Source of the DNA: Actinomycetota bacterium
GTDB taxonomy: Bacteria > Actinomycetota > JAHEXW01 > JAGVPG01
DNA: 40,206 nt
NCBI GenBank assembly: GCA_020052375.1
Contig: JAGVPG010000026.1
Coordinates: 1-40,206, forward strand
Direction of reading: 5' to 3'
Under the pieces are notes generated by a model. The model was not told where the DNA came from and searched no databases. It worked only from the letters and a program-made list of their open reading frames with translations. Below, one piece after another: positions 27,360 to 37,664 of this stretch. The position numbers and the translations under genes are program-made. Numbering within the stretch: the first letter of the stretch is position 1; the number at the start of each line of letters is the position of its first letter.

Positions 27360-29312
27360 ATGCTCCTTTCAATGTCGAAAGTCCAGATCATAGGTCCTAA
27401 GAAGCTGTTCTATGATACGCTGAACGTGCTTCATTTTCTAGGGGCACTCCAGATCGAAGACCTCTCCAGGAAGATCACCCCCGGTGATATGTTGATGCGC
27501 AAGATGGATGTCGACCAGGAAGCCAAGCAGAAACACGACCAGCTGGAAGCCCTCTATGGAAAGATCAGCGCCATCCTTACCACGATCAAGCCGGAAGCCG
27601 AAGAGGACGATCGTATAAAAACTGAGGTCAAGGAATCGTACGATGTCATTTGGCGTTCTTCATGCGAGGACCTGGCGTTCGACTGTAACGAGATCATCAA
27701 GAAACTGGATGCTTCAACGCGCGATCTGGCGACACACAAAACAGACCTCGAGCGCGAGCTTGCGTCTCTGTCCAGGTACGAGACGATAGTAAAGAAGCTC
27801 TATCCTCTGGCGCCGCAGCTCTATCGCCTGGAGGGCTTCGAGGCAGTGGCTTTGCTGGTCAGCAAGAAATACGGTGCGGTCTTGGAACTTATACGACAGG
27901 AGATCGGCAAGATCACCAAAAAGCAGTTCGAGCTGATATCAGCCGAAGTGGACGAGGACACGATCGCGGCGATAGTCCTGTTCAAAGATATTTATTCGGA
28001 CCAGGTGCATAACTTCCTGTGGGCGGAGAAGGTAAACCAGGTAAGATTACCGGAAAGTCTGGCGGACAAGCCGTTCGAAGACATCCTCGATCATATAAAA
28101 GCACGCAAATCCGAGATCCCGGTCGAGACGGAGAAGATCGAAGAAAAGTTGAAGAAATCCGGCGAGAAGTGGTATGTCAAACTTCTTGTGCTGAAACAGG
28201 CGCTGCGTGACAGGATCGAAGAACTGGAGATGCCGGCGCAACTAGGCCAGACGGATTTCACGTTTGTGATCAACGGATGGATCCCGTCAAAAGACCTCGA
28301 TCGCTTGAAGAACACTTTGGACGAGGAGTTCGAGGGCAGTCTTCATGTCGAAGAGCTTCAAGTCAGCCACGAGGAGATAGAGGAGGCGCCTGTCGTCTTC
28401 AACAATCCGACTCTTTTCAAACCGTTCGAGACAGCGTTGCGTATTTTCCCGCTGCCGCGCTACGGTACGATAGACCCGACTCCTTTCGTCGCCATATTCT
28501 TCCCTATCTTTTTTGGCATGATCGTAGGCGATATCGGTATCGGCCTGGTCATCCTTGCCGTAGCTTTGTTAGCCCGCTGGCGCTACTCGAAAGAGAAGGC
28601 ATGGGTCAAACCGGTTACTATGATATTCATCAGCGGGGCGCTATCGGCCATCATGTTCGGTTTTCTATACGGGGAGTTCTTCGGCAATATTCTGGAGATC
28701 AACCATCTTATCAGGGAGATCCATATATTCGGCATCAAGTTGCCGCTGAACAGGCTTGAGCTGATCATCCCCATGCTCTTTTTATCTGTCGGTGTCGGGG
28801 CCACTCAGGTTATTCTGGGTCTCTTCCTAGGCGTTATCAACGGGATCAGACAAAAAGCAAGGAAGCACACGCTGGAAAAAGTGGGGATGCTGATCGTTTT
28901 ATTTGCCATCTTACTGATCGTCGGAGCAGTGGTCACCAAGATCCAGGTGCTTATGACACCGGCGTTTATAGGCATATTGATAGGTGTCGTCCTCTTGGTG
29001 TACTCCGCCGGTTTTATGGGAGTCGTCGAGATCTTCGGGACGCTCGGCAACATATTCTCATATACGCGTATACTAGCGCTGGGATTGGCAGGGATGATCC
29101 TGGCTATGGTCGCAAATGATCTTGTCGGTTCGATGGGGAGCGTATATGTAGGTGTCGCTCTCGCTCTGCTACTGCATGTCTTGAACATAGCTGTAGCTGC
29201 ATTCTCACCGACCATACATTCATTGCGGCTTAATCTTATCGAGTTCTTTAAACAGTTTGTAGAACAGGGAGGCAGTGAATATAAGCCTTTCAAACGAGTA
29301 GGAGGTGTGTAG
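27360..29312 (+). CDS. ntpI: V-type ATP synthase subunit I
   Basis: A 650-residue subunit a/I. Residues about 1-335 are the cytosolic domain with coiled coils that anchors the peripheral stalks. About 360-640 form the membrane domain with seven or eight hydrophobic helices, including PLPRYGTIDPTPFVAIFFPI, FGMIVGDIGIGLVIL, FSYTRILALGLAGMILAMV (conserved Arg of the ion half-channel) and the C-terminal HSLRLNLIEFFKQF. It provides the ion path next to the c-ring. AAGGGGGGA lies just before the ATG. Confidence 0.97.
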   Translation: MLLSMSKVQIIGPKKLFYDTLNVLHFLGALQIEDLSRKITPGDMLMRKMDVDQEAKQKHDQLEALYGKISAILTTIKPEAEEDDRIKTEVKESYDVIWRSSCEDLAFDCNEIIKKLDASTRDLATHKTDLERELASLSRYETIVKKLYPLAPQLYRLEGFEAVALLVSKKYGAVLELIRQEIGKITKKQFELISAEVDEDTIAAIVLFKDIYSDQVHNFLWAEKVNQVRLPESLADKPFEDILDHIKARKSEIPVETEKIEEKLKKSGEKWYVKLLVLKQALRDRIEELEMPAQLGQTDFTFVINGWIPSKDLDRLKNTLDEEFEGSLHVEELQVSHEEIEEAPVVFNNPTLFKPFETALRIFPLPRYGTIDPTPFVAIFFPIFFGMIVGDIGIGLVILAVALLARWRYSKEKAWVKPVTMIFISGALSAIMFGFLYGEFFGNILEINHLIREIHIFGIKLPLNRLELIIPMLFLSVGVGATQVILGLFLGVINGIRQKARKHTLEKVGMLIVLFAILLIVGAVVTKIQVLMTPAFIGILIGVVLLVYSAGFMGVVEIFGTLGNIFSYTRILALGLAGMILAMVANDLVGSMGSVYVGVALALLLHVLNIAVAAFSPTIHSLRLNLIEFFKQFVEQGGSEYKPFKRVGGV

Positions 29313-29315
29313 CGT

Positions 29316-29534
29316 ATGGCAGTTCTTTTCAAGGCGTTGGGAGCGGCACTCGCCATCGGATTAGCGGCTCTAAGCACCGGTTACGCGCAGGCTAAGATAG
29401 GTTCGGCCGGCGCCGGAGCGATTGCCGAAAAACCGGAGACCGCGGGTATGATACTAGCTCTGGAAGCGTTGCCCGAGCTCGTCGTCGTTCTTGGATTTGT
29501 AGTAGCGGCGATGATCATCACGCAGCTTAAGTAA
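29316..29534 (+). CDS. ntpK: V-type ATP synthase subunit K (rotor c-subunit, 8-kDa type)
   Basis: A 72-residue proteolipid of two transmembrane helices, the single-hairpin form. Gly/Ala-rich helix 1, loop AIAEKPE, helix 2 ALEALPELVVVLGFV with Glu54 as the ion-binding carboxylate. The Thr and Tyr that follow this Glu in Na+-binding K subunits (ETYAILGF in Enterococcus) are Leu55 and Val58 here, suggesting protons rather than Na+, but this is inference. Located directly after subunit I. Confidence 0.96.
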   Translation: MAVLFKALGAALAIGLAALSTGYAQAKIGSAGAGAIAEKPETAGMILALEALPELVVVLGFVVAAMIITQLK

Positions 29535-29564
29535 GCAGACTAGAGAAGGTAGAGGGAATGACAT

Positions 29565-30143
29565 ATGCCGCTTCAAGATATTATCGGCGTTCTTGAACGC
29601 TACGGCACTGATGAAGAAGACGAAGTAAAAGCCCGTTGTGATATCCAGATCAGTGAGATCCTTGAAATAGCCGGGGACGACGCAAAAAAGATACGCGAAC
29701 AATGCCTGCACTCTATGGAGAAGACGATCAAGGGTGATACCTCTAAGGTGCTGACAGAGGCCAAACTGCAGGTAAGAAAGCAGGTCATCAAGGCTAAAGA
29801 GGATTCAATCGAAGATGCTTTTAAAAAAGCGGGCGAGAATTTAAGGGGTTTAAGGAAGACCGTCAAATACGAAAAGATCATGGAGGACTTGATAACGGAG
29901 GTCGTCGACCACTGTCCGTCGGACGCGGTCATCAGAGTCGATCCTGCAGACAAGGCGCTGACGCAGAAGATCATAGACCGAGAAGGCCTTAAATGGGAGA
30001 TAAAAACCGATATCACTTGCTCCGGAGGACTTAAGGCGGTCAGCGCGGATGGGCGCGTCTGTTTCGACAACACGTTCGAATCGCGGTTAGACAAGGCAAA
30101 GCAGTTTATAAGGCCCGATGTCACGACCATTCTTTTCGGATGA
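29565..30143 (+). CDS. ntpE: V-type ATP synthase subunit E
   Basis: A 192-residue peripheral-stalk subunit. The N-terminal half is a charged helix; the C-terminal globular part shows YEKIMEDLITEVVDHC, VRVDPADKAL-like IRVDPADKALTQKII and CSGGLKAVSADGRVCFDNTF ESRLDKA, typical of subunit E. It pairs with the G/H protein. AGAGGGA precedes the ATG. Confidence 0.93.
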   Translation: MPLQDIIGVLERYGTDEEDEVKARCDIQISEILEIAGDDAKKIREQCLHSMEKTIKGDTSKVLTEAKLQVRKQVIKAKEDSIEDAFKKAGENLRGLRKTVKYEKIMEDLITEVVDHCPSDAVIRVDPADKALTQKIIDREGLKWEIKTDITCSGGLKAVSADGRVCFDNTFESRLDKAKQFIRPDVTTILFG

Positions 30144-30151
30144 TATAAGAC

Positions 30152-31207
30152 ATGGGAACCGATTACGGATACGCGAACGCCAGAGTAAGAGCGATGAAGA
30201 GCTACCTGTTCAGGCGTCCGTTCTATGAGAAACTTCTTCAGATGGCGACCTTGCAGGACATGACGACAACACTTGCAAAAACACCTTATGCCAGGGACAT
30301 AGACGAAGCGATGATCAAGTATAGCGGGATAAGGGGTTTTGACGAGGCGTTGCGGATGAACACAATGAGGACGTTCAGAAAGATCCTTAAGTTCGTTGAT
30401 TCCGACGGGCGGGAACTGGTGGACATACTCGTAGGGCGCTGGGACGTGTCGAACATCAAGACTATCTTGAGAGGTAAGAACATCGGCGCAAGTACTGAAG
30501 ACATAGTGACCAGCCTGATCCCGGCCGGGGAATTGGACGAGATCACGTTACGCGAGCTGGCCGGCCAACTCGATGTAAGAAGCTGCATCGATCTAATGGC
30601 GACCTGGCGGTTACCGTACGCAAGCGCTCTGACGGAAGCGTTTCCGGAATATACGAAGCGAAGGAATATGACCTCGCTTGAACTGGCTCTTGACAAGACC
30701 TATTATGAAGACGCTTTTTCCAGACTTAAAAGAAACTCTATGAATGTCTCGCTGGTGAGGGAGATCCTTAGAAGGGAGATCGATCTGACCAATATCATGA
30801 CGGTCTTAAGGGTGATCAAGGATGAGATCGAACCCAAACAAGCTAAGAGGTTTCTCCTCGAAGGAGGCAAAGAATTCGATATGGAGCGTCTGGAGTCGCT
30901 TCTAAAAGAGGCCAGTATAGAGGATGTGGTGTTCAAACTTAAAACCTCGTCATACGGACGCGTCCTTGAGTCTCATATGAACGACTACTTCGAATCCGGT
31001 TCTCTGGTCCGGATCGAAAGAAGCCTCGAAGAGACGGCGGTCAGACGAGGCATCGCTATGTTCAGAGCAGACCCATTGAGCATCGCGATGATCATCGGTT
31101 ATATCTGGGCAAAGTACAACGAGATCATAAACCTACGGGTCATCGCCAGAAGCAAGATGGTCGGTATGCCGGAGGACAAGACGAGGGAGGCGCTGATCCT
31201 TGCGTAA
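30152..31207 (+). CDS. ntpC: V-type ATP synthase subunit C
   Basis: A 351-residue all-helical subunit C/d that caps the rotor ring and couples it to the central stalk. Family segments: YGYANARVRAMKSYLF at the N-terminus, the LVGRWDVSNIKTILRGK motif, LTNIMTVLRVIKDEI and the C-terminal IGYIWAKYNEIINLRVIARS, KMVGMPEDKTREALI. Overlaps ntpF by 8 nt. Confidence 0.96.
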   Translation: MGTDYGYANARVRAMKSYLFRRPFYEKLLQMATLQDMTTTLAKTPYARDIDEAMIKYSGIRGFDEALRMNTMRTFRKILKFVDSDGRELVDILVGRWDVSNIKTILRGKNIGASTEDIVTSLIPAGELDEITLRELAGQLDVRSCIDLMATWRLPYASALTEAFPEYTKRRNMTSLELALDKTYYEDAFSRLKRNSMNVSLVREILRREIDLTNIMTVLRVIKDEIEPKQAKRFLLEGGKEFDMERLESLLKEASIEDVVFKLKTSSYGRVLESHMNDYFESGSLVRIERSLEETAVRRGIAMFRADPLSIAMIIGYIWAKYNEIINLRVIARSKMVGMPEDKTREALILA

Positions 31208-31541
31208 GTTTATCGTCCTTACGGATCCGGAAAGCGCGGACGGGTTCCGGCTAGCCGGAGTCGAAGTCCTCGAAGCTTCCATAGAGGACCGCACGGATAC
31301 AAAGAGGAAGTTGATCGGCCTGATCAACGACGATGATGTCGGGATCATCGGCATAGACGAAGACCTCCTGTTGGAGATCGACGAACCGACCAGATTGAAG
31401 ATCGACCGGCTATACCGCCCGATCGTCATAGCGATACCGGCGAAGAAGAAGCTGGGTGTGAGCGAGGCCAGGCATAGCTTCCTGGCGAGCATGATCCATA
31501 GAGCCATAGGCTTTGATATCAGAGTAGGAAGGAATGCTTAG
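31200..31541 (+). CDS. ntpF: V-type ATP synthase subunit F
   Basis: A 113-residue central-stalk subunit with a Rossmann-like fold: VLTDPESADGFRLAGVEV and NDDDVGIIGIDEDLL, ending in a helix. TTG start at 31200 inside the end of ntpC, supported by the family N-terminus and a GAGGGAGG upstream. Stop directly abuts ntpA. Confidence 0.94.
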   Translation: MRKFIVLTDPESADGFRLAGVEVLEASIEDRTDTKRKLIGLINDDDVGIIGIDEDLLLEIDEPTRLKIDRLYRPIVIAIPAKKKLGVSEARHSFLASMIHRAIGFDIRVGRNA

Positions 31542-33302
31542 ATGATAGAGGGGAGAATCAATAAGATATCCGGACCTGTCGTGGTGGCTATAGGTCTGAC
31601 CGGTGCCAAGATGTATGACGTCGTCAAGGTAGGCGATATGGGTCTGATCGGCGAGGTCATACGCCTTGAAGGCGACGCCGCCACCGTGCAGGTGTATGAG
31701 GACACGGAGGGCGTCAGGGTCGGAGAGAAGGTCGTGAGCACCGAGAACCCGCTTCTGATCGAGCTTGGACCGGGGCTTCTGGCGTCCATTTACGACGGAA
31801 CACAGCGTCCGCTGCCCGATATCATGGAGAAGCAGGGCGCGTTTATAGCCAGGGGAGTCACTGTGAACTCCCTGAACCGCGAGAAAAAATGGGATTTCAA
31901 TCCGACGATCAAGAAAGGCGCAAAAGTCACAACGGGAGATGTATTAGGAACGGTCGTCGAGACAAAAGGTATAACGCATAAGATCCTGGTGCCGCATGGC
32001 TTGTCCGGTGTAATCGACTCGATTGAAAAAGGCAAGTTCACGGTGGAGGATACTGTCGCCGTTCTAAAAGACGAAAACGGCGGTACGCATGAGTTGAATA
32101 TGATCCAGCGCTGGCCGGCGCGACAGAGCCGTCCTTACAAAGAGAAACTTGATCCCGAGCTTCCATTGATGACCGGCCAGAGGGTATTCGATACGTTTTT
32201 CCCGATCCCTAAAGGCGGAGCGGCCATCATACCCGGCGGTTTCGGCACGGGCAAGACGGTCACGGAACAGACATTAGCCAAGTGGGCCGATGCGGATATC
32301 ATCGTTTATGTCGGATGCGGCGAGCGGGGCAACGAGATGTGCGAGGTCTTGACGGAGTTTCCCACACTGATCGACCCGCGTACGGGAAACCCGCTGCTTG
32401 ACCGGACGGTCCTTATCGCTAATACGTCGAATATGCCGGTGGCCGCGAGAGAGGCATCCATCTACACAGGCATTACTATCGCCGAGTACTACAGGGACAT
32501 GGGATATCACGTGGCGATGATGGCCGATAGCACCTCGCGTTGGGGTGAAGCGTTGCGCGAGGTCTCCGGACGTCTCGAAGAGATGCCCGGAGAGGAAGGA
32601 TATCCGGCATATCTGGCAACGAGATTGGCCAGTTTCTATGAGAGAGCGGGGCGCACCGTCTGTTATGGAGAGGACGACCGTGTCGGTTCGGTCACAGTAG
32701 TCGGAGCCGTATCGCCTCCAGGCGGTGATTTTTCCGAGCCGATGACGCAGCATAGCCTACGCATCACGGGGGCGTTCTGGGCGCTCGATACCGATCTGGC
32801 GCACAGACGCCATTTCCCGGCGATCAACTGGATCAAGAGCTACTCGCTTTATAAAGAGCAGGTGGCCGACTGGTTCAAAGAAAACGTTTCGGCAGATTAT
32901 ATGGAGGTCAGCGAGCGCGCGATGTATCTGCTGCAGCGCGAGACGGAGCTCCAGGAGATCGTACAGCTTGTCGGACCGGACGCGTTACCTGAAAATGAAC
33001 GGGCGATCCTGGAGACGACCAGGATGATGAGGGAAGATTATCTCCAACAGTTCGCTTTCGACGACGTCGACTGCTATTGCCCACCGGAGAAGCAGTACTG
33101 GATGCTGAAAGCGATCCTTACTTTCTACGAAGCGTCGCAGGAAGCGTTGACACGCGGTGTTACCTTAAGCCAGATCATGTCGTTACCTTTAAAGAACGAG
33201 ATAGCCAGGATGAAGTACATCAGGACAAAAGATGCGGTAAATACGATAAAGAAACTTATAGATTCGATCGTAAAAGAGATCACATCGATAGAGGTGCTGT
33301 GA
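31542..33302 (+). CDS. ntpA: V-type ATP synthase catalytic subunit A
   Basis: A 586-residue catalytic subunit. P-loop GGFGTGKT at about residues 231-238, catalytic-Glu region [35 protein letters not shown], and [17 protein letters not shown]. The long non-homologous insert between the N-terminal barrel and nucleotide domain ([17 protein letters not shown] region) distinguishes it from F1-beta. It hydrolyses or makes ATP. TGATG overlap with ntpB. Confidence 0.98.
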
Positions 33303-34870
33303 TGGACAAGATGCTTTCATTAATGCAAAAACAATACTCGACCATCAGTTATGTCTCCGGACCGCTTATATTCGTAGAGCGCGCGAAACATGTGGCTTAC
33401 GGCGAGATGGTGGACATAGAGCTTCCGAACGGGGAACGCAGGGCCGGCCAGGTGCTGGAAAGCGCCGGCGATATGGCCGTCGTCCAGGTGTTCGAGGGGA
33501 CGCAGGGGATCGATGTTGATAAGACGACGGTCAGCTTCCGCGATGAAGTCGCGAAGATCGACGTGTCGGTCGATCTTCTGGGGCGAGTCCTGAACGGCCG
33601 CGGCGAACCGATAGACGGCCGCGGCAGGATCCTTCCGGAAGACCGCCTGGAGATCACCGGATCGCCGTTGAACCCGGTATCCCGTGACGAACCCGCGGAT
33701 TTCATCCAGACAGGCATATCGGCCATTGACGGCCTGAATACGCTGGTCCGTGGACAGAAACTGCCTATCTTCTCCGGTTCCGGATTACCGGCGAACCAGT
33801 TGATCGCTCAGACGATCCGCCAGGCGCAGGTAAAAAGCGGGGAAGAGTTCGCGATAGTATTCGCGGCTCTTGGAATATCTCACCGCGAGGCATCGTTCTT
33901 CATCAACGATTTCGAGAAGAGCGGCGCTCTTGAACGCGTCGTCTTCTTTATCAACCTTGCCGATGACCCGACGATCGAACGGATAATCACACCGAGGTGT
34001 GCCCTTACGGTTGCCGAATACCTGGCGTTCAAGTGGGACATGCAGGTCCTCGTTATCCTTAGCGATATGACCAACTACTGCGAGGCCCTACGGGAGATCT
34101 CGACCGCGCGGGAAGAAGTGCCGGGCAGACGCGGTTATCCCGGTTATATGTATACCGACCTCGCGACGATCTACGAACGGGCCGGTAGGATCAAGGACAA
34201 AAAGGGCTCGATCACACAGTTGATACTTCTGACTATGCCTGACGATGACATAACCCATCCGATACCTGACCTTACCGGTTATATAACGGAAGGGCAGATA
34301 GTCCTTGGCAGGCACTTGAACCGGCGCGGTATATACCCGCCGATCGACGTACTTCCGTGCCTGTCCCGTCTGATGAATCTGGGGATCGGCGCCGACAAGA
34401 CACGCGAGGACCATCGGAACGTCGCCGACCAGCTTTACGCTTCATACGCGCAAGGCCGTGACCTTAGGCGGCTGGTCTCGATCATCGGAGAGGAAGCGTT
34501 GTCCGAAGCCGACCGTAAATATCTTAAGTTTGCCGATGATTTCGAGTCGCGGTTCATCTCGCAGGGGGACAGTAACCGGGATATCTCAGAGACCATGGAT
34601 ATCGCGTGGGAACTCCTGTCCAGTCTTCCGAGAGAGGAACTTAAGAGGATCAAGGATGTCTTCATCGACAAGTATCTGCCACGTATCGAAGAGTCTGGCG
34701 GCGAGGAAGGCGAGATGGGAGAGGCCGGGGAGTCGGAAGCTGAATCCGGGATGCCTCAAGGCGGCAACGATTTCACTCCGATGATGAAGGATCTGGAGCC
34801 GAATGACGTGGAAACGCTAGAGTCGGTACAGTCGAACGGTGGCACGAACGAACCGGTAATAAGGGAGTAG
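33302..34870 (+). CDS. ntpB: V-type ATP synthase subunit B, with acidic C-terminal tail
   Basis: A 522-residue non-catalytic subunit. The start is ATG 33302 ([12 protein letters not shown]); the upstream open frame to 33077 is only a shadow of ntpA. It has [37 protein letters not shown] in place of a P-loop (about residue 157), [20 protein letters not shown] and [17 protein letters not shown]. The family usually has 455-475 residues. Here about 55 extra residues rich in Glu, Gly, Ser and Asn ([20 protein letters not shown] onwards) follow the core. Confidence 0.97.
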
Positions 34871-34873
34871 ACG

Positions 34874-35542
34874 TTGGAGGAAGCCAATCCTACCAGGACT
34901 GAACTGCTGGCTAAAAAGGCGCAGATCGAACTGGCTCAACAAGGTCGCGATCTGCTGAAAGAAAAAAGAGATGCCCTGATCGTAGAGTTCATGGCGGTCA
35001 TGGACCGGGTCGTCCGGTCGAGCCAGAAACTCGAACAGATCTCGAATGAAGCCCAGTACGCGCTGACAGTCGCCAAAGCGGTAGATGGTTCTGTCGCAGT
35101 CAGGTCGGCTTCGTTCGCGACGGGCGGGGAAGTGAGAGTCGACGTCCGCGGTTCGTACATCATGGGCGTTCCGGTCCCGGAGATCACCAAGAAGAGCGTA
35201 AAGAGGACCCTGGTGACAAGGGGCTATAGCTTGACCGGGATGAGCAGCCGGATCGATGAGACAGCCGAGTGTTTCGAAGAAGAACTCGATATAATCCTGG
35301 ACATCGCGGCGATCGAGACTAGACTACGCCGCTTAGGCGAGGAGATCGCCAAGACGAGAAGGCGCGTAAATGCGCTGGATAACATCATGCTTCCGACACT
35401 GAAGGAACAAGTCCGTTACATACAGATGATCCTTGAGGAAAGAGCCAGAGAAGATCTCTTCAGACTCAAGAAAGTCAAAAAAGCGATCGAGAAGAGGAAA
35501 AGAGCTCAAGAAGCTGCTAAAAAGTCGACAGTACCTTGTTGA
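34874..35542 (+). CDS. ntpD: V-type ATP synthase subunit D
   Basis: A 222-residue central-shaft coiled coil: PTRTELLAKKAQIELAQQGR DLLKEKRDAL at the N-terminus, GVPVPEITKK in the middle and ETRLRRLGEEIAKTRRRVNA LDNIMLP at the C-terminal helix, the classic subunit D ends. TTG start at 34874 with AAGGGAG upstream. The last 26 nt overlap the end of a convergent minus-strand gene. Confidence 0.96.
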   Translation: MEEANPTRTELLAKKAQIELAQQGRDLLKEKRDALIVEFMAVMDRVVRSSQKLEQISNEAQYALTVAKAVDGSVAVRSASFATGGEVRVDVRGSYIMGVPVPEITKKSVKRTLVTRGYSLTGMSSRIDETAECFEEELDIILDIAAIETRLRRLGEEIAKTRRRVNALDNIMLPTLKEQVRYIQMILEERAREDLFRLKKVKKAIEKRKRAQEAAKKSTVPC

Positions 35543-35849: not shown

Positions 35850-35891
35850 TCTTGACCCCCCTCTCGTGACAAAAAGCACGTTCTTTCCTTA

Positions 35892-35920
35892 ATTCTATGA
35901 TTAATGAGGCAAAATGTAAA
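35892..35920 (-). promoter_or_regulatory. Promoter of the minus-strand hypothetical gene
   Basis: Reading the minus strand: TTTACA (35920-35915), a 17-nt spacer and TAGAAT (35897-35892), about 43 nt before the ATG at 35849. Spacing and both hexamers fit a housekeeping sigma-70-type promoter. Confidence 0.55.
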
Positions 35921-35924
35921 CGTG

Positions 35925-35933
35925 TGATACAAT
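35925..35933 (+). promoter_or_regulatory. Candidate extended -10 promoter toward the fmdB-like gene
   Basis: TGATACAAT forms a TGN-extended -10 (TACAAT 35928-35933) with no good -35 box, about 80 nt before the fmdB-like ATG. It is divergent from, and within 5 nt of, the minus-strand promoter, so one regulator could affect both. Confidence 0.4.
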
Positions 35934-35966
35934 AAAAATTGTGAGCATTGAATAGGAACGGATAAA

Positions 35967-35992
35967 TGTAGCCGCCGACCTTTAGGTCGGCT
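35967..35992 (+). repeat. Hairpin repeat, ATGTAGC + GCCGACC/GGTCGGC, copy 2
   Basis: After a leading ATGTAGC, an 8-bp stem GCCGACCT (35974-35981) and AGGTCGGC (35984-35991) closes on a TT loop. Second copy of the element at 8394-8419, 27.6 kb away, same orientation, with a two-base shorter stem. It lies in the 5' leader of the fmdB-like gene. Confidence 0.75.
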
Positions 35993-36012
35993 CCCTAAAA
36001 CGGTGAACGTTG

Positions 36013-36237
36013 ATGCCTGTCTATGAGTATGAGTGCAAGAAATGTCTACATAAGTTCGAGTATCTGGTGAGGTCGTCATCGGATAAGCCTGTATGCCCGA
36101 AATGTAAGAGCAAAAGCCTGGACAAGATGTTCTCCGTCTTCGGGGCCAAGACTAAAAGTTCGGATGGCTCCACATCGTCGGTCGGCGGTTCCGGTTGCAC
36201 CTCCTGCGCCGGCGGCTCCTGCAACACCTGCCATTAA
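36013..36237 (+). CDS. FmdB-type zinc-ribbon protein
   Basis: A 74-residue FmdB/YhfA-like small protein. MPVYEYECKKCLHKFEYLVR and DKPVCPKCKSKSLDKMFSVF give the two CXXC pairs of the zinc ribbon; a Gly/Ser-rich C-terminus ends CTSCAGGSCNTCH. The role of this common family is unproven, with a regulatory role suggested. ATG at 36013 is chosen as MPVYEY is the usual start; a TTG precedes it by three bases. Confidence 0.93.
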   Translation: MPVYEYECKKCLHKFEYLVRSSSDKPVCPKCKSKSLDKMFSVFGAKTKSSDGSTSSVGGSGCTSCAGGSCNTCH

Positions 36238-36243
36238 CCCTTA

Positions 36244-36273
36244 TTGCCAGTATCACCTCATTTAGTATAGAAT
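36244..36273 (+). promoter_or_regulatory. Candidate promoter upstream of the multihaem cytochrome gene
   Basis: TTGCCA (36244-36249) followed by TATAGA (16-nt spacing) or TAGAAT (18-nt spacing, 36268-36273) in the 176-nt gap after the fmdB-like gene. It would give a leader of about 130 nt that contains the two repeats below. Confidence 0.4.
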
Positions 36274-36310
36274 TTGAGTGATTTAGTGTGAGAAATAAGT
36301 TACGAGTCAG

Positions 36311-36400
36311 TACCCCCACCTAAATCCTCCCCCTTAATGGGGGAGGAATCAAAGGAGGGGGTGGTTAAAGGGGCTACGAGCCACTGGCTACAAGCTATTT
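36311..36400 (+). repeat. CCTCCCCC hairpin element and GCTA heptamer array before the cytochrome gene
   Basis: A 9-bp stem TCCTCCCCC (36325-36333) and GGGGGAGGA (36339-36347) with loop TTAAT is flanked by CCCCCACC (36313-36320) and GGAGGGGGTGG (36354-36364). It is followed by four 7-nt units beginning GCTA or GCCA (36373-36400). No T-run follows the hairpin, so it does not look like a terminator. Confidence 0.75.
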
Positions 36401-36413
36401 TTAAGGGGTGAAG

Positions 36414-37052
36414 ATGGCGAAGAAGAAAGAGCCGGAAGAGCCTAAGAAAGAGAAGAAGACCAAGAAAGCAAAAGAAGAGAAGCCGAAGAAGAAAAGGCAT
36501 CTGTGGCGGTGGGTCCTTGGTTTTATCATCCTCTTCATAATCGCTTTCATCCCGTATTATTACACCGCGTACCCTGCGTCTTGTACCAAATGCCACTCGA
36601 TGGACGATTACTATACAAGCTGGAAGAAGTCTCTTCATGGCGAGGACGAGATAGTCTGCAGCGAATGCCATGTCAGACCGGGATATTTTGCTTTTTTCAC
36701 ATATCGCATCGGATTCTACCGCGAGATCTTCGCTTCGGCGCTTGACTTGAAATTGTCTCCTTGGGGGGCGACAGCGCCCGGGGAGTCTTCATGTACGCGC
36801 GACGGCTGCCATTCGTTCAACCGGCTGACTTCACGGACAGGCGAGCTTAAGATCGATCACAAGAAACACAGCAAACGCGTCAAATGCCGGACGTGCCACG
36901 CGGGGATCGTACATCCCAACGTCAGAGGGATAGGCCTGAATACACCACCCAGGAAACAGTGTTTCGTGTGTCATCAAAAAGAGATCAAGAAGTGCGACTT
37001 CTGCCATATGACGAAATATAAGCCGGGGACAAAACCGAAGACTCCTCATTAA
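36414..37052 (+). CDS. Membrane-anchored multihaem cytochrome c, NapC/NirT-like
   Basis: A 212-residue protein: Lys/Glu-rich cytoplasmic N-terminus (1-30), one transmembrane helix (about 31-50), then an extracytoplasmic domain with haem c sites CTKCH (57-61), CSECH (82-86), an unusual CX4CH (127-133, CTRDGCH), CRTCH (158-162), CFVCH (183-187) and CDFCH (194-198): five standard sites plus one expanded, so up to six haems. The anchor and first two haems (CTKCHSMDDYYTSW, SLHGEDEIVCSECH) recall NapC/NirT quinol dehydrogenases, suggesting electron transfer from menaquinol. No terminal reductase is nearby. ATG 36414 is chosen over GTG 36408 by AAGGGG spacing. Confidence 0.88.
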   Translation: MAKKKEPEEPKKEKKTKKAKEEKPKKKRHLWRWVLGFIILFIIAFIPYYYTAYPASCTKCHSMDDYYTSWKKSLHGEDEIVCSECHVRPGYFAFFTYRIGFYREIFASALDLKLSPWGATAPGESSCTRDGCHSFNRLTSRTGELKIDHKKHSKRVKCRTCHAGIVHPNVRGIGLNTPPRKQCFVCHQKEIKKCDFCHMTKYKPGTKPKTPH

Positions 37053-37061
37053 TAAGACAAG

Positions 37062-37664
37062 ATGTCTGAAGCATTAAAAGAACTGTACGCACAGCATTCT
37101 GACTGCACGGGTTGCTCTTTGTCCAAGAGCGCGAATAACGTCGTCTTCGGATTCGGCAACGAGTCGTCGGACGTAGTGTTCGTCGGGGAGGCTCCCGGTT
37201 ATCACGAAGACAAGGAAGGCAAGCCGTTCGTCGGCGCTGCGGGGCAGCTTCTTACAAACCTGCTGGCATCCATCGGCATGAAGAGGGAAGACATATATAT
37301 AACCAATGTCTTGAAATGCCGGCCGCCGGGCAACCGCGATCCCCTGCCTGAAGAGATAGAAGCCTGCAAACCGCTGCTTATGAAACAGATCGATATAATC
37401 GCGCCGAAGGTGGTCGTCACTTTGGGCAGTTTTGCCGCCAGGGTGATCCTCGGGAAGGTTATGCCGATGTCCAAGATCCACGGACAACCTGTCAAGACAG
37501 ACGGGTATCTTGTTTTTCCGACATACCACCCTGCGGCGGCGCTTTATGCGCGCACTACGATGACTTCACTCGAAGACGACTTTAAAGCCCTTAAAGAGCT
37601 TCTGGATAGCGGTGTGCCTCATGTCCGTGAGGAAGCCAAGACAGAACAGCTCGGCTTGTTTTAG
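37062..37664 (+). CDS. Uracil-DNA glycosylase, family 4 (iron-sulfur)
   Basis: A 200-residue family-4 UDG removing uracil from DNA. Fe-S cysteines C15 and C18 (CTGC), C86 (VLKCRPPGNRDP) and C102 (IEACKPLL). Active-site motif GEAPGYHEDKEGKPFVGAAG and C-terminal TYHPAA. It ends EQLGLF, matching the QL[S/D]LF beta-clamp-binding consensus. Nine nt downstream of the cytochrome gene. Confidence 0.97.
   Translation: MSEALKELYAQHSDCTGCSLSKSANNVVFGFGNESSDVVFVGEAPGYHEDKEGKPFVGAAGQLLTNLLASIGMKREDIYITNVLKCRPPGNRDPLPEEIEACKPLLMKQIDIIAPKVVVTLGSFAARVILGKVMPMSKIHGQPVKTDGYLVFPTYHPAAALYARTTMTSLEDDFKALKELLDSGVPHVREEAKTEQLGLF

Follow-up and report, generated by a model that had tools for sequence, protein, structure and literature searches.

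The window, by which we mean the whole stretch of DNA analysed (40,206 nucleotides, contig JAGVPG010000026.1 of an Actinomycetota bacterium), carries on its forward strand a gene for a predicted hexahaem cytochrome with an NrfH-like head (Table 1). The translated protein begins with a Lys/Glu-rich N-terminus, followed by one membrane helix and a domain with six haem motifs, in the order CTKCH, CSECH, CTRDGCH, CRTCH, CFVCH and CDFCH. Hydropathy gave a single hydrophobic stretch, best at residues 34–52, and the AF2 model of the window protein has a helix at residues 26–51. A one-helix NapC-like cytochrome with five CXXCH sites and one CTRDGCH site had been proposed in a first-pass annotation made from the letters alone; translation, hydropathy and the Pfam family PF03264 bore this out, and the coordinates given there for the CX4CH site were exact. 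The Lys-rich start that it described is present in the window protein and, by sequence comparison, is not kept in the relatives. GTG 36408 was considered as the start codon and dropped in favour of ATG 36414, since the likely ribosome-binding site overlaps the GTG.

The gene lies, as first described, between an FmdB-like gene and DNA-repair/tRNA genes. The uracil-DNA-glycosylase-type (UDG) gene downstream is followed, according to Pfam, by genes for TsaE, TsaB (TsaD/TsaB model PF00814), a RimI-like GNAT acetyltransferase and TsaD. No reductase gene adjoining the cytochrome was seen among the window's ORFs and Pfam matches, in agreement with the earlier annotation, nor was one seen in G001. The arrangement alanine racemase, BsuPI-domain gene, cytochrome, UDG, tsaE, tsaB, rimI, tsaD recurs in that genome (locus L047), which belongs to another family of the same taxonomic order and supports the actinobacterial lineage considered earlier. 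In the window, the BsuPI-domain genes are separated from the cytochrome by additional genes, among them V-type ATPase subunits and the FmdB gene. The V-type ATPase genes (PF01496, PF01992, ATP-synt_ab with PF22919, and PF01813) occupy positions 27360–35542, and in the sister family such genes are not found between the BsuPI-domain gene and the cytochrome.

A scan of positions 35850–37150 gave four promoter-like sites where 1.3 were expected, including a forward-strand one at 36244–36273, and no terminator-like site where 1.2 were expected; these counts were given no weight in the interpretation. No RNA features were detected in the window by Rfam at gathering thresholds or by ARAGORN.

Table 1. 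Features at the cytochrome locus, in window coordinates
Feature	Position	Strand	Basis
FmdB-type zinc ribbon gene (PF09723), upstream	36013..36237	+	Pfam
Likely ribosome-binding site AAGGGGTG	about 36403..36410	+	By eye, 5' of ATG 36414
Hexahaem NrfH-headed cytochrome gene (639 bp, 212 residues)	36414..37052	+	Translation, motif and Pfam search
Transmembrane helix, about residues 34–53	36513..36572	+	Hydropathy and AF2 helix 26–51
Haem 1 site CTKCHSM (CXXCHXM), residues 57–63, NrfH-type quinol-side haem	36582..36602	+	Motif search and alignment
H75, predicted distal ligand, aligned with His61 of NrfH	36636..36638	+	Alignment
Haem 2 site CSECH, residues 82–86	36657..36671	+	Motif search
R98, aligned with Lys82 of NrfH; Arg in 20/20	36705..36707	+	Alignment
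E104, aligned with Asp89 of NrfH, the acidic residue over haem 1; Glu in 20/20	36723..36725	+	Alignment
Haem 3 site CTRDGCH (CX4CH), residues 127–133	36792..36812	+	Motif search and family alignment
H149 to H152 (HKKH), two predicted distal ligands, as in c7/PpcA	36858..36869	+	Alignment
Haem 4 site CRTCH, residues 158–162	36885..36899	+	Motif search
H167, predicted distal ligand	36912..36914	+	Family alignment
Haem 5 site CFVCH, residues 183–187	36960..36974	+	Motif search
Haem 6 site CDFCH, residues 194–198	36993..37007	+	Motif search
H212, C-terminal His, predicted distal ligand	37047..37049	+	Family alignment
UDG-family gene (PF03167), 9 bp downstream, possibly co-transcribed; same gene order in G001/L047	37062..37664	+	Pfam

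Distribution and conservation of the CX4CH site

Relatives were sought with profile A1 in 396 genomes of the phylum at a threshold of E ≤ 1e-40, which yielded matches in 13 genomes, the window's own included; two of these, G042 and G249, fall outside the main clade described below. An A1 scan of named genomes returned 77 stretches from seven distinct loci, including Candidatus Aquicultor primus and other Actinomycetota MAGs. A single-sequence scan of genome contigs gave 66 pattern-matching stretches, with no relative confirmed; both genome scans can omit records close to the window's genome. In viral contigs, none of 73 was confirmed as a relative.

The 228 multihaem ORFs collected were reduced to 95 distinct sequences, of which 68 entered the tree and 27 were left out. 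Entry was granted to sequences with a best domain score of at least 50 and a span of at least 150 model positions, and the motif columns were removed. The window protein falls in a clade of 20 sequences from 11 genomes with support 100/100, contributed by the window, G001, G059 (three), G020 (three), G047, L048 (two), L049 (two), L051 (three), L052, L053 (two) and G305. The third site is CX4CH, two residues longer than in most relatives, in all 20, which also share both Cys, the His and the four-residue spacing. At one loop position, that of R129 in the window protein, 19 members have Arg and one has Lys; the same column is basic in 12 of the 48 other tree members. The first-pass annotation had allowed for a sequence error restoring CXXCH at this position, which is ruled out by the recurrence of CX4CH throughout the clade. 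At the level of sequence comparison, the CX4CH third site is thus a genuine, family-wide conserved feature.

Among the 48 tree members outside the clade, 45 have CX2CH at site 3 and three have CX4CH, namely one protein each in G042 and G249, plus an 11-haem protein in G042. The genes for the former two adjoin a 12-haem relative with CX2CH. CX4CH at the third haem outside the main clade was observed at L013 1381–2175, L065 1444–2238 and L030 1108–2037, and the L013 and L065 proteins have a second CX4CH near the C-terminus. The branch of the L030 sequence, the 11-haem protein, is long and joins a second long branch, and this placement was flagged as possibly false. The spacing label at site 3 needs three changes on the tree, for which bootstrapping had not settled (0.980, with 0.99 wanted). 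An independent gain of CX4CH in the G042/G249 pair is not claimed: the tree keeps the pair apart with starred branches, and forcing it into the main clade costs 18 log units with an AU p of 0.084, so that the single-clade arrangement is not rejected.

A spacing census of the 95 distinct multihaem ORFs, which had been chosen for at least four CX2–4CH sites and of which many come from loci picked by similarity to the window protein, counted 779 CX2CH, 27 CX4CH, three CX3CH and one CX1CH. CX0CH and CX5CH to CX11CH were each absent from these ORFs. CX4CH recurs far above chance in this set, which was preselected for CX2–4CH and in which 20 of the 27 CX4CH sites belong to members of one family, that of the window protein. 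The rarity initially ascribed to CX4CH haem attachment was overstated. The CXXXXCH pattern occurs twice in cytochrome c3 (PMC10454114), ImcH homologues have CX3CH (PMC6295460), and two genome surveys accept CX4CH as a haem motif (PMC10734462, PMC5566968). In the parts of the openly licensed literature that were searched, we found no earlier description of a CX4CH hexahaem family. The protein is a conserved and somewhat unusual variant of the NrfH-headed multihaem cytochromes, but the CX4CH spacing itself was already known from cytochrome c3.

Candidate ligands and likeness to known cytochromes

Exactly 11 histidines follow the membrane helix of the window protein, six in the motifs and five others (H75, H149, H152, H167 and H212); one further histidine, H29, lies N-terminal of the helix. 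Judged from sequence, the protein likely binds six haems, because the five non-motif histidines suffice for haems 2–6 and the CXXCHXM motif at haem 1 is of the NrfH type; the earlier count of up to six haems thus agrees with six sites and five conserved candidate distal ligands. CXXCHXM at haem 1 is found in all 20 clade members, in which H61, M63, H75, R98, E104, R137, H149, H152 and H167 are invariant. Of the 20 trimmed rows, 19 show an aligned C-terminal His, and the twentieth protein, from G305, whose row was trimmed, also ends in His at full length. Non-motif histidines in the trimmed rows number six or seven in 15 members and five in four members (window included), while the G305 row has four, a value that is low from trimming. 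The exact fit of five distal histidines is accordingly clean in the window protein and not in every relative. Lys82 of NrfH has a role with quinol. The NrfH residue numbers used here (Met49, His61, Lys82 and Asp89) were counted along printed alignments. In the CXXCHXM motif of NrfH, Met binds the haem, with Asp on the other side (PMC8840924).

The window protein matched PF03264 (NapC/NirT/NrfH) with 37.6 bits, above the gathering cut-off of 24.1, and the NrfH equivalog model TIGR03153 with 49.6 bits, far under its cut-off of 134.2. The c7 family PF14522 scored 22.3 bits, just under its cut-off of 24.8, and no match to PF02085 (class III cytochrome c3) was listed at E values up to 1. In a PDB profile search, NrfH was the best match among solved structures (E 2.5e-7), which upholds the NapC/NrfH-likeness proposed initially, and the tail matched PpcA/c7 at about E 5e-5.

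AF2 models, which are haem-free and moderate in confidence, were computed for the window protein (25 rows; pLDDT 68.6, pTM 0.57) and with an L053 relative as query (30 rows; pLDDT 76.8, pTM 0.62). NrfH chains topped both Foldseek lists (E 0.045 and 0.13), with no match at E ≤ 0.001 for either model. VIA comparison with NrfH gave Z values of 7.6 (rmsd 4.5, 126 aligned) and 7.5 (rmsd 4.3, 127 aligned), within a range of 7.3–7.6 that is middling by the tool's own scale. The sequence-profile match to NrfH is firmer than the fold values, which are moderate. Cytochrome c7 was not among the chains listed in the fold comparisons, which says nothing against c7; the likeness of the tail comes from sequence.

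By these comparisons, the head resembles NrfH and the tail resembles cytochrome c7. The plain NapC/NrfH class needs four haems, and we call the protein NrfH-headed because it has six sites. With NrfH (PDB 2j7a, 2vr0) it shares the N-terminal helix, CXXCHXM at haem 1, an acidic residue at the position of Asp89 and the head fold; it differs in having two more sites, CX4CH at the third one and a c7-like tail, in failing to reach the NrfH equivalog cut-off and in coming from a genome with no NrfA match above cut-off. The tail has HKKH, three CXXCH haems and similar spacing in common with cytochrome c7/PpcA (PDB 3bxu, 1os6). Unlike PpcA, the window protein is membrane-anchored, and it lacks the His that precedes the second CXXCH of this stretch in PpcA, having H167 and the C-terminal His instead. 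Class III cytochrome c3 shares CX4CH haem attachment, although it has the pattern twice (PMC10454114), as against a single CX4CH, no listed PF02085 match and another architecture in the window protein.

Among proposed quinol oxidases, ImcH of Geobacter is likewise NapC/NirT-like with one odd spacing (PMC6295460). In ImcH, however, this is a CX3CH adjoining the membrane part of a protein with three helices and seven haems, whereas the window protein has one hydrophobic stretch and CXXCH at site 1. Two further proteins are likened by their published descriptions. ImdcA of Thermincola ferriacetica is a membrane-anchored, proposed quinol-oxidising multihaem protein of a Gram-positive bacterium, in which EPR hints at one high-spin haem; it is a decahaem and not a hexahaem protein (PMC7911101). 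Ga0395992_02_29558_30178 of Carboxydothermus ferrireducens has six predicted haems, is transmembrane and outer-facing, and spans about 206 codons by its coordinates (PMC7829351).

Gene clusters and genome setting

In nine distinct loci (G059, G020/L050, G047, L048, L049, L051, L052, L053 and G305), the gene lies inside a multihaem cluster, with two or more tandem copies in six of them. Both flanks are visible in seven of the nine loci, L049 and L051 being cut by contig ends; at 7/9 loci, it is flanked by 9/10-haem relatives in one direction and by a 12-haem relative in the opposite one, sometimes with a short gene between. A DsbD/CcdA-type gene (PF02683) occurs at 8/9 loci; L051 starts inside the cluster. 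The G059 cluster also encodes TPR proteins, NHL proteins and a b561-type cytochrome. In G305, NrfD and a 4Fe-4S protein adjoin. Inspection by eye showed that three neighbours there, with nine, eight and nine haems, are missing the first CXXCH, whereas the CX4CH protein keeps haem 1; PF03264 matches one of these three neighbours and is not listed for the other two. This cluster spans L096 7892–15334, where one 9-haem neighbour has a later CISFGCH (CX4CH) site.

The window's own genome has, on contig C24, a cluster with two 10-haem relatives and one 12-haem relative, and no CX4CH hexahaem gene was found in the 20 kb read there. Within the window's own order, the gene lies outside any cytochrome cluster, and it therefore seems to have moved in this order. 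System I genes for CcmE, CcmF, an ABC ATPase, CcmB and a CcmC-like protein are also located on C24, at about 14.2–19.4 kb (L044), where they adjoin a CXXCH hexahaem relative. The CcmE has CPSKY, the CXXXY form, which is found as well in Desulfovibrio desulfuricans and archaea (PMC9084895).

The earlier annotation had recommended a search of the genome for partner proteins. Apart from the window gene, seven further matches were found; like the multihaem clusters around the relatives, they had escaped that annotation. The NrfA family PF02335 had no match above cut-off in this genome, which is 95.4% complete. One sub-threshold PF02335 match (21.0 bits) was recorded at another locus; at C16 66.3–68.1 kb (L046 11299–13106), an octahaem protein with such a sub-threshold match lies beside a hexahaem NrfH-like relative. 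The menaquinone-pathway family PF02621 has one match. No Omp85 match was found, compared with seven positives among 14 control genomes, so that a single membrane is likely; this is consistent with the one cell membrane initially expected of an actinobacterium.

In three molybdopterin oxidoreductases of this genome, an in-frame TGA sits within the context ARL-TGA-H-A/S-P (C7 75069–76343, C12 12770–14380 and C26 1758–3365; L092–L094). We take this context to look like the selenocysteine site of formate dehydrogenases, and because of this resemblance the three formate-dehydrogenase-like proteins are probably selenoproteins.

Proposed role and alternatives

We read the product as a one-helix, outward-facing hexahaem c-type cytochrome that would be the menaquinol-linked entry point for electrons leaving a cell with one membrane through an outward chain, with a probability of about 0.66, a value set after the histidines of the relatives had been recounted. 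The haem motifs, their family-wide conservation, the ligand count, the similarity to NrfH and c7 and the gene context of the relatives are the parts drawn from sequence. In this reading, an NrfH-like head (haems 1–3) is joined to a c7-like triplet (haems 4–6), and we infer the occupancy of haem 3, the pairing of ligands, quinol oxidation, the direction of flow and the partners. Menaquinol would most likely give its electrons to the head at haem 1, whose motif is CXXCHXM and where E104 and R98 take the positions of Asp89 and Lys82 of NrfH; from there the electrons would pass via haem 2, CX4CH haem 3 and haems 4–6 to the larger multihaem cytochromes of the outward chain. The protein most likely serves menaquinol-to-multihaem electron transfer for outward respiration, in a place comparable to that of CymA, ImcH or ImdcA. 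Actinobacteria of other lineages have multihaem sets tied to Fe(III) reduction or to cathodes (PMC9686372, PMC7943316).

The same protein could work in reverse, accepting electrons from a mineral, an electrode or a partner cell outside and reducing menaquinone, to which we give a modest chance. CymA and the CbcL/MtrH/MtoC types are thought to be bidirectional (PMC6295460), and electron uptake from a cathode was proposed for an actinobacterium that has multihaem cytochromes and a V-type ATPase (PMC7943316), V-type ATPase genes lying upstream in the window too; nothing in the sequence fixes the direction, and the three probable formate-dehydrogenase-like selenoproteins suggest low-potential donors inside the cell. 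A slimmer chance is left to a membrane anchor of one dedicated soluble reductase, in the manner of NrfH for NrfA and with no long-range chain. Its sequence and fold are nearest NrfH, and the hexahaem relative on C16 adjoins the octahaem protein with the weak PF02335 match, but no reductase was seen beside the gene in the window or in G001, the nearly complete genome has no PF02335 match above cut-off, and the relatives lie among larger multihaem proteins.

That the CX4CH site is haem-free and the protein pentahaem is improbable: the AF2 confidence of about 64 near this site in the first model would allow it, against which stand the invariant Cys, His and spacing, a ligand count that fits six haems, the absence of CX5CH to CX11CH where CX4CH recurs, and the attachment of haem to CX4CH in cytochrome c3 (PMC10454114). 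The 9-bp gap to the UDG gene and a gene order shared by two families of the order could also speak for a protein of redox sensing or stress response that is linked to the DNA-repair/tRNA-modification genes downstream. This we hold to be very improbable, as the gene lies in cytochrome clusters elsewhere in the family and relocation beside housekeeping genes would account for the gene order.

Beyond the reading as a menaquinol-linked entry point, we tentatively envisage a distinct hexahaem family of such proteins, known to date from anaerobic-type Actinomycetota alone, whose haem 3 switched to CX4CH and whose conserved basic loop residue tunes the potential of that haem or gates the step from the head to the c7 tail. 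The C24 System I, Desulfovibrio/archaea-like in its CcmE CXXXY form, would mature the CX4CH site, and two other relatives may have acquired the same switch at the same haem independently, although a single origin shared with one of these two is not rejected. The wider proposal is possible, though we would not bet on it.

Electron handover from quinones to multihaem carriers in single-membrane bacteria has been worked out for few organisms; of the Actinomycetota concerned, many are known from environmental genomes alone. A compact hexahaem protein with fixed candidate ligands and one CX4CH beside CXXCH relatives would offer a small, testable model of the first step, as well as of the effect of two extra residues on the haem and its attachment. 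Two further CX4CH sites in the window's own genome, CGAPKCH and CYQAPCH, were observed in c3/c7-type multihaem proteins at L043 3788–4783 and 13923–15440.
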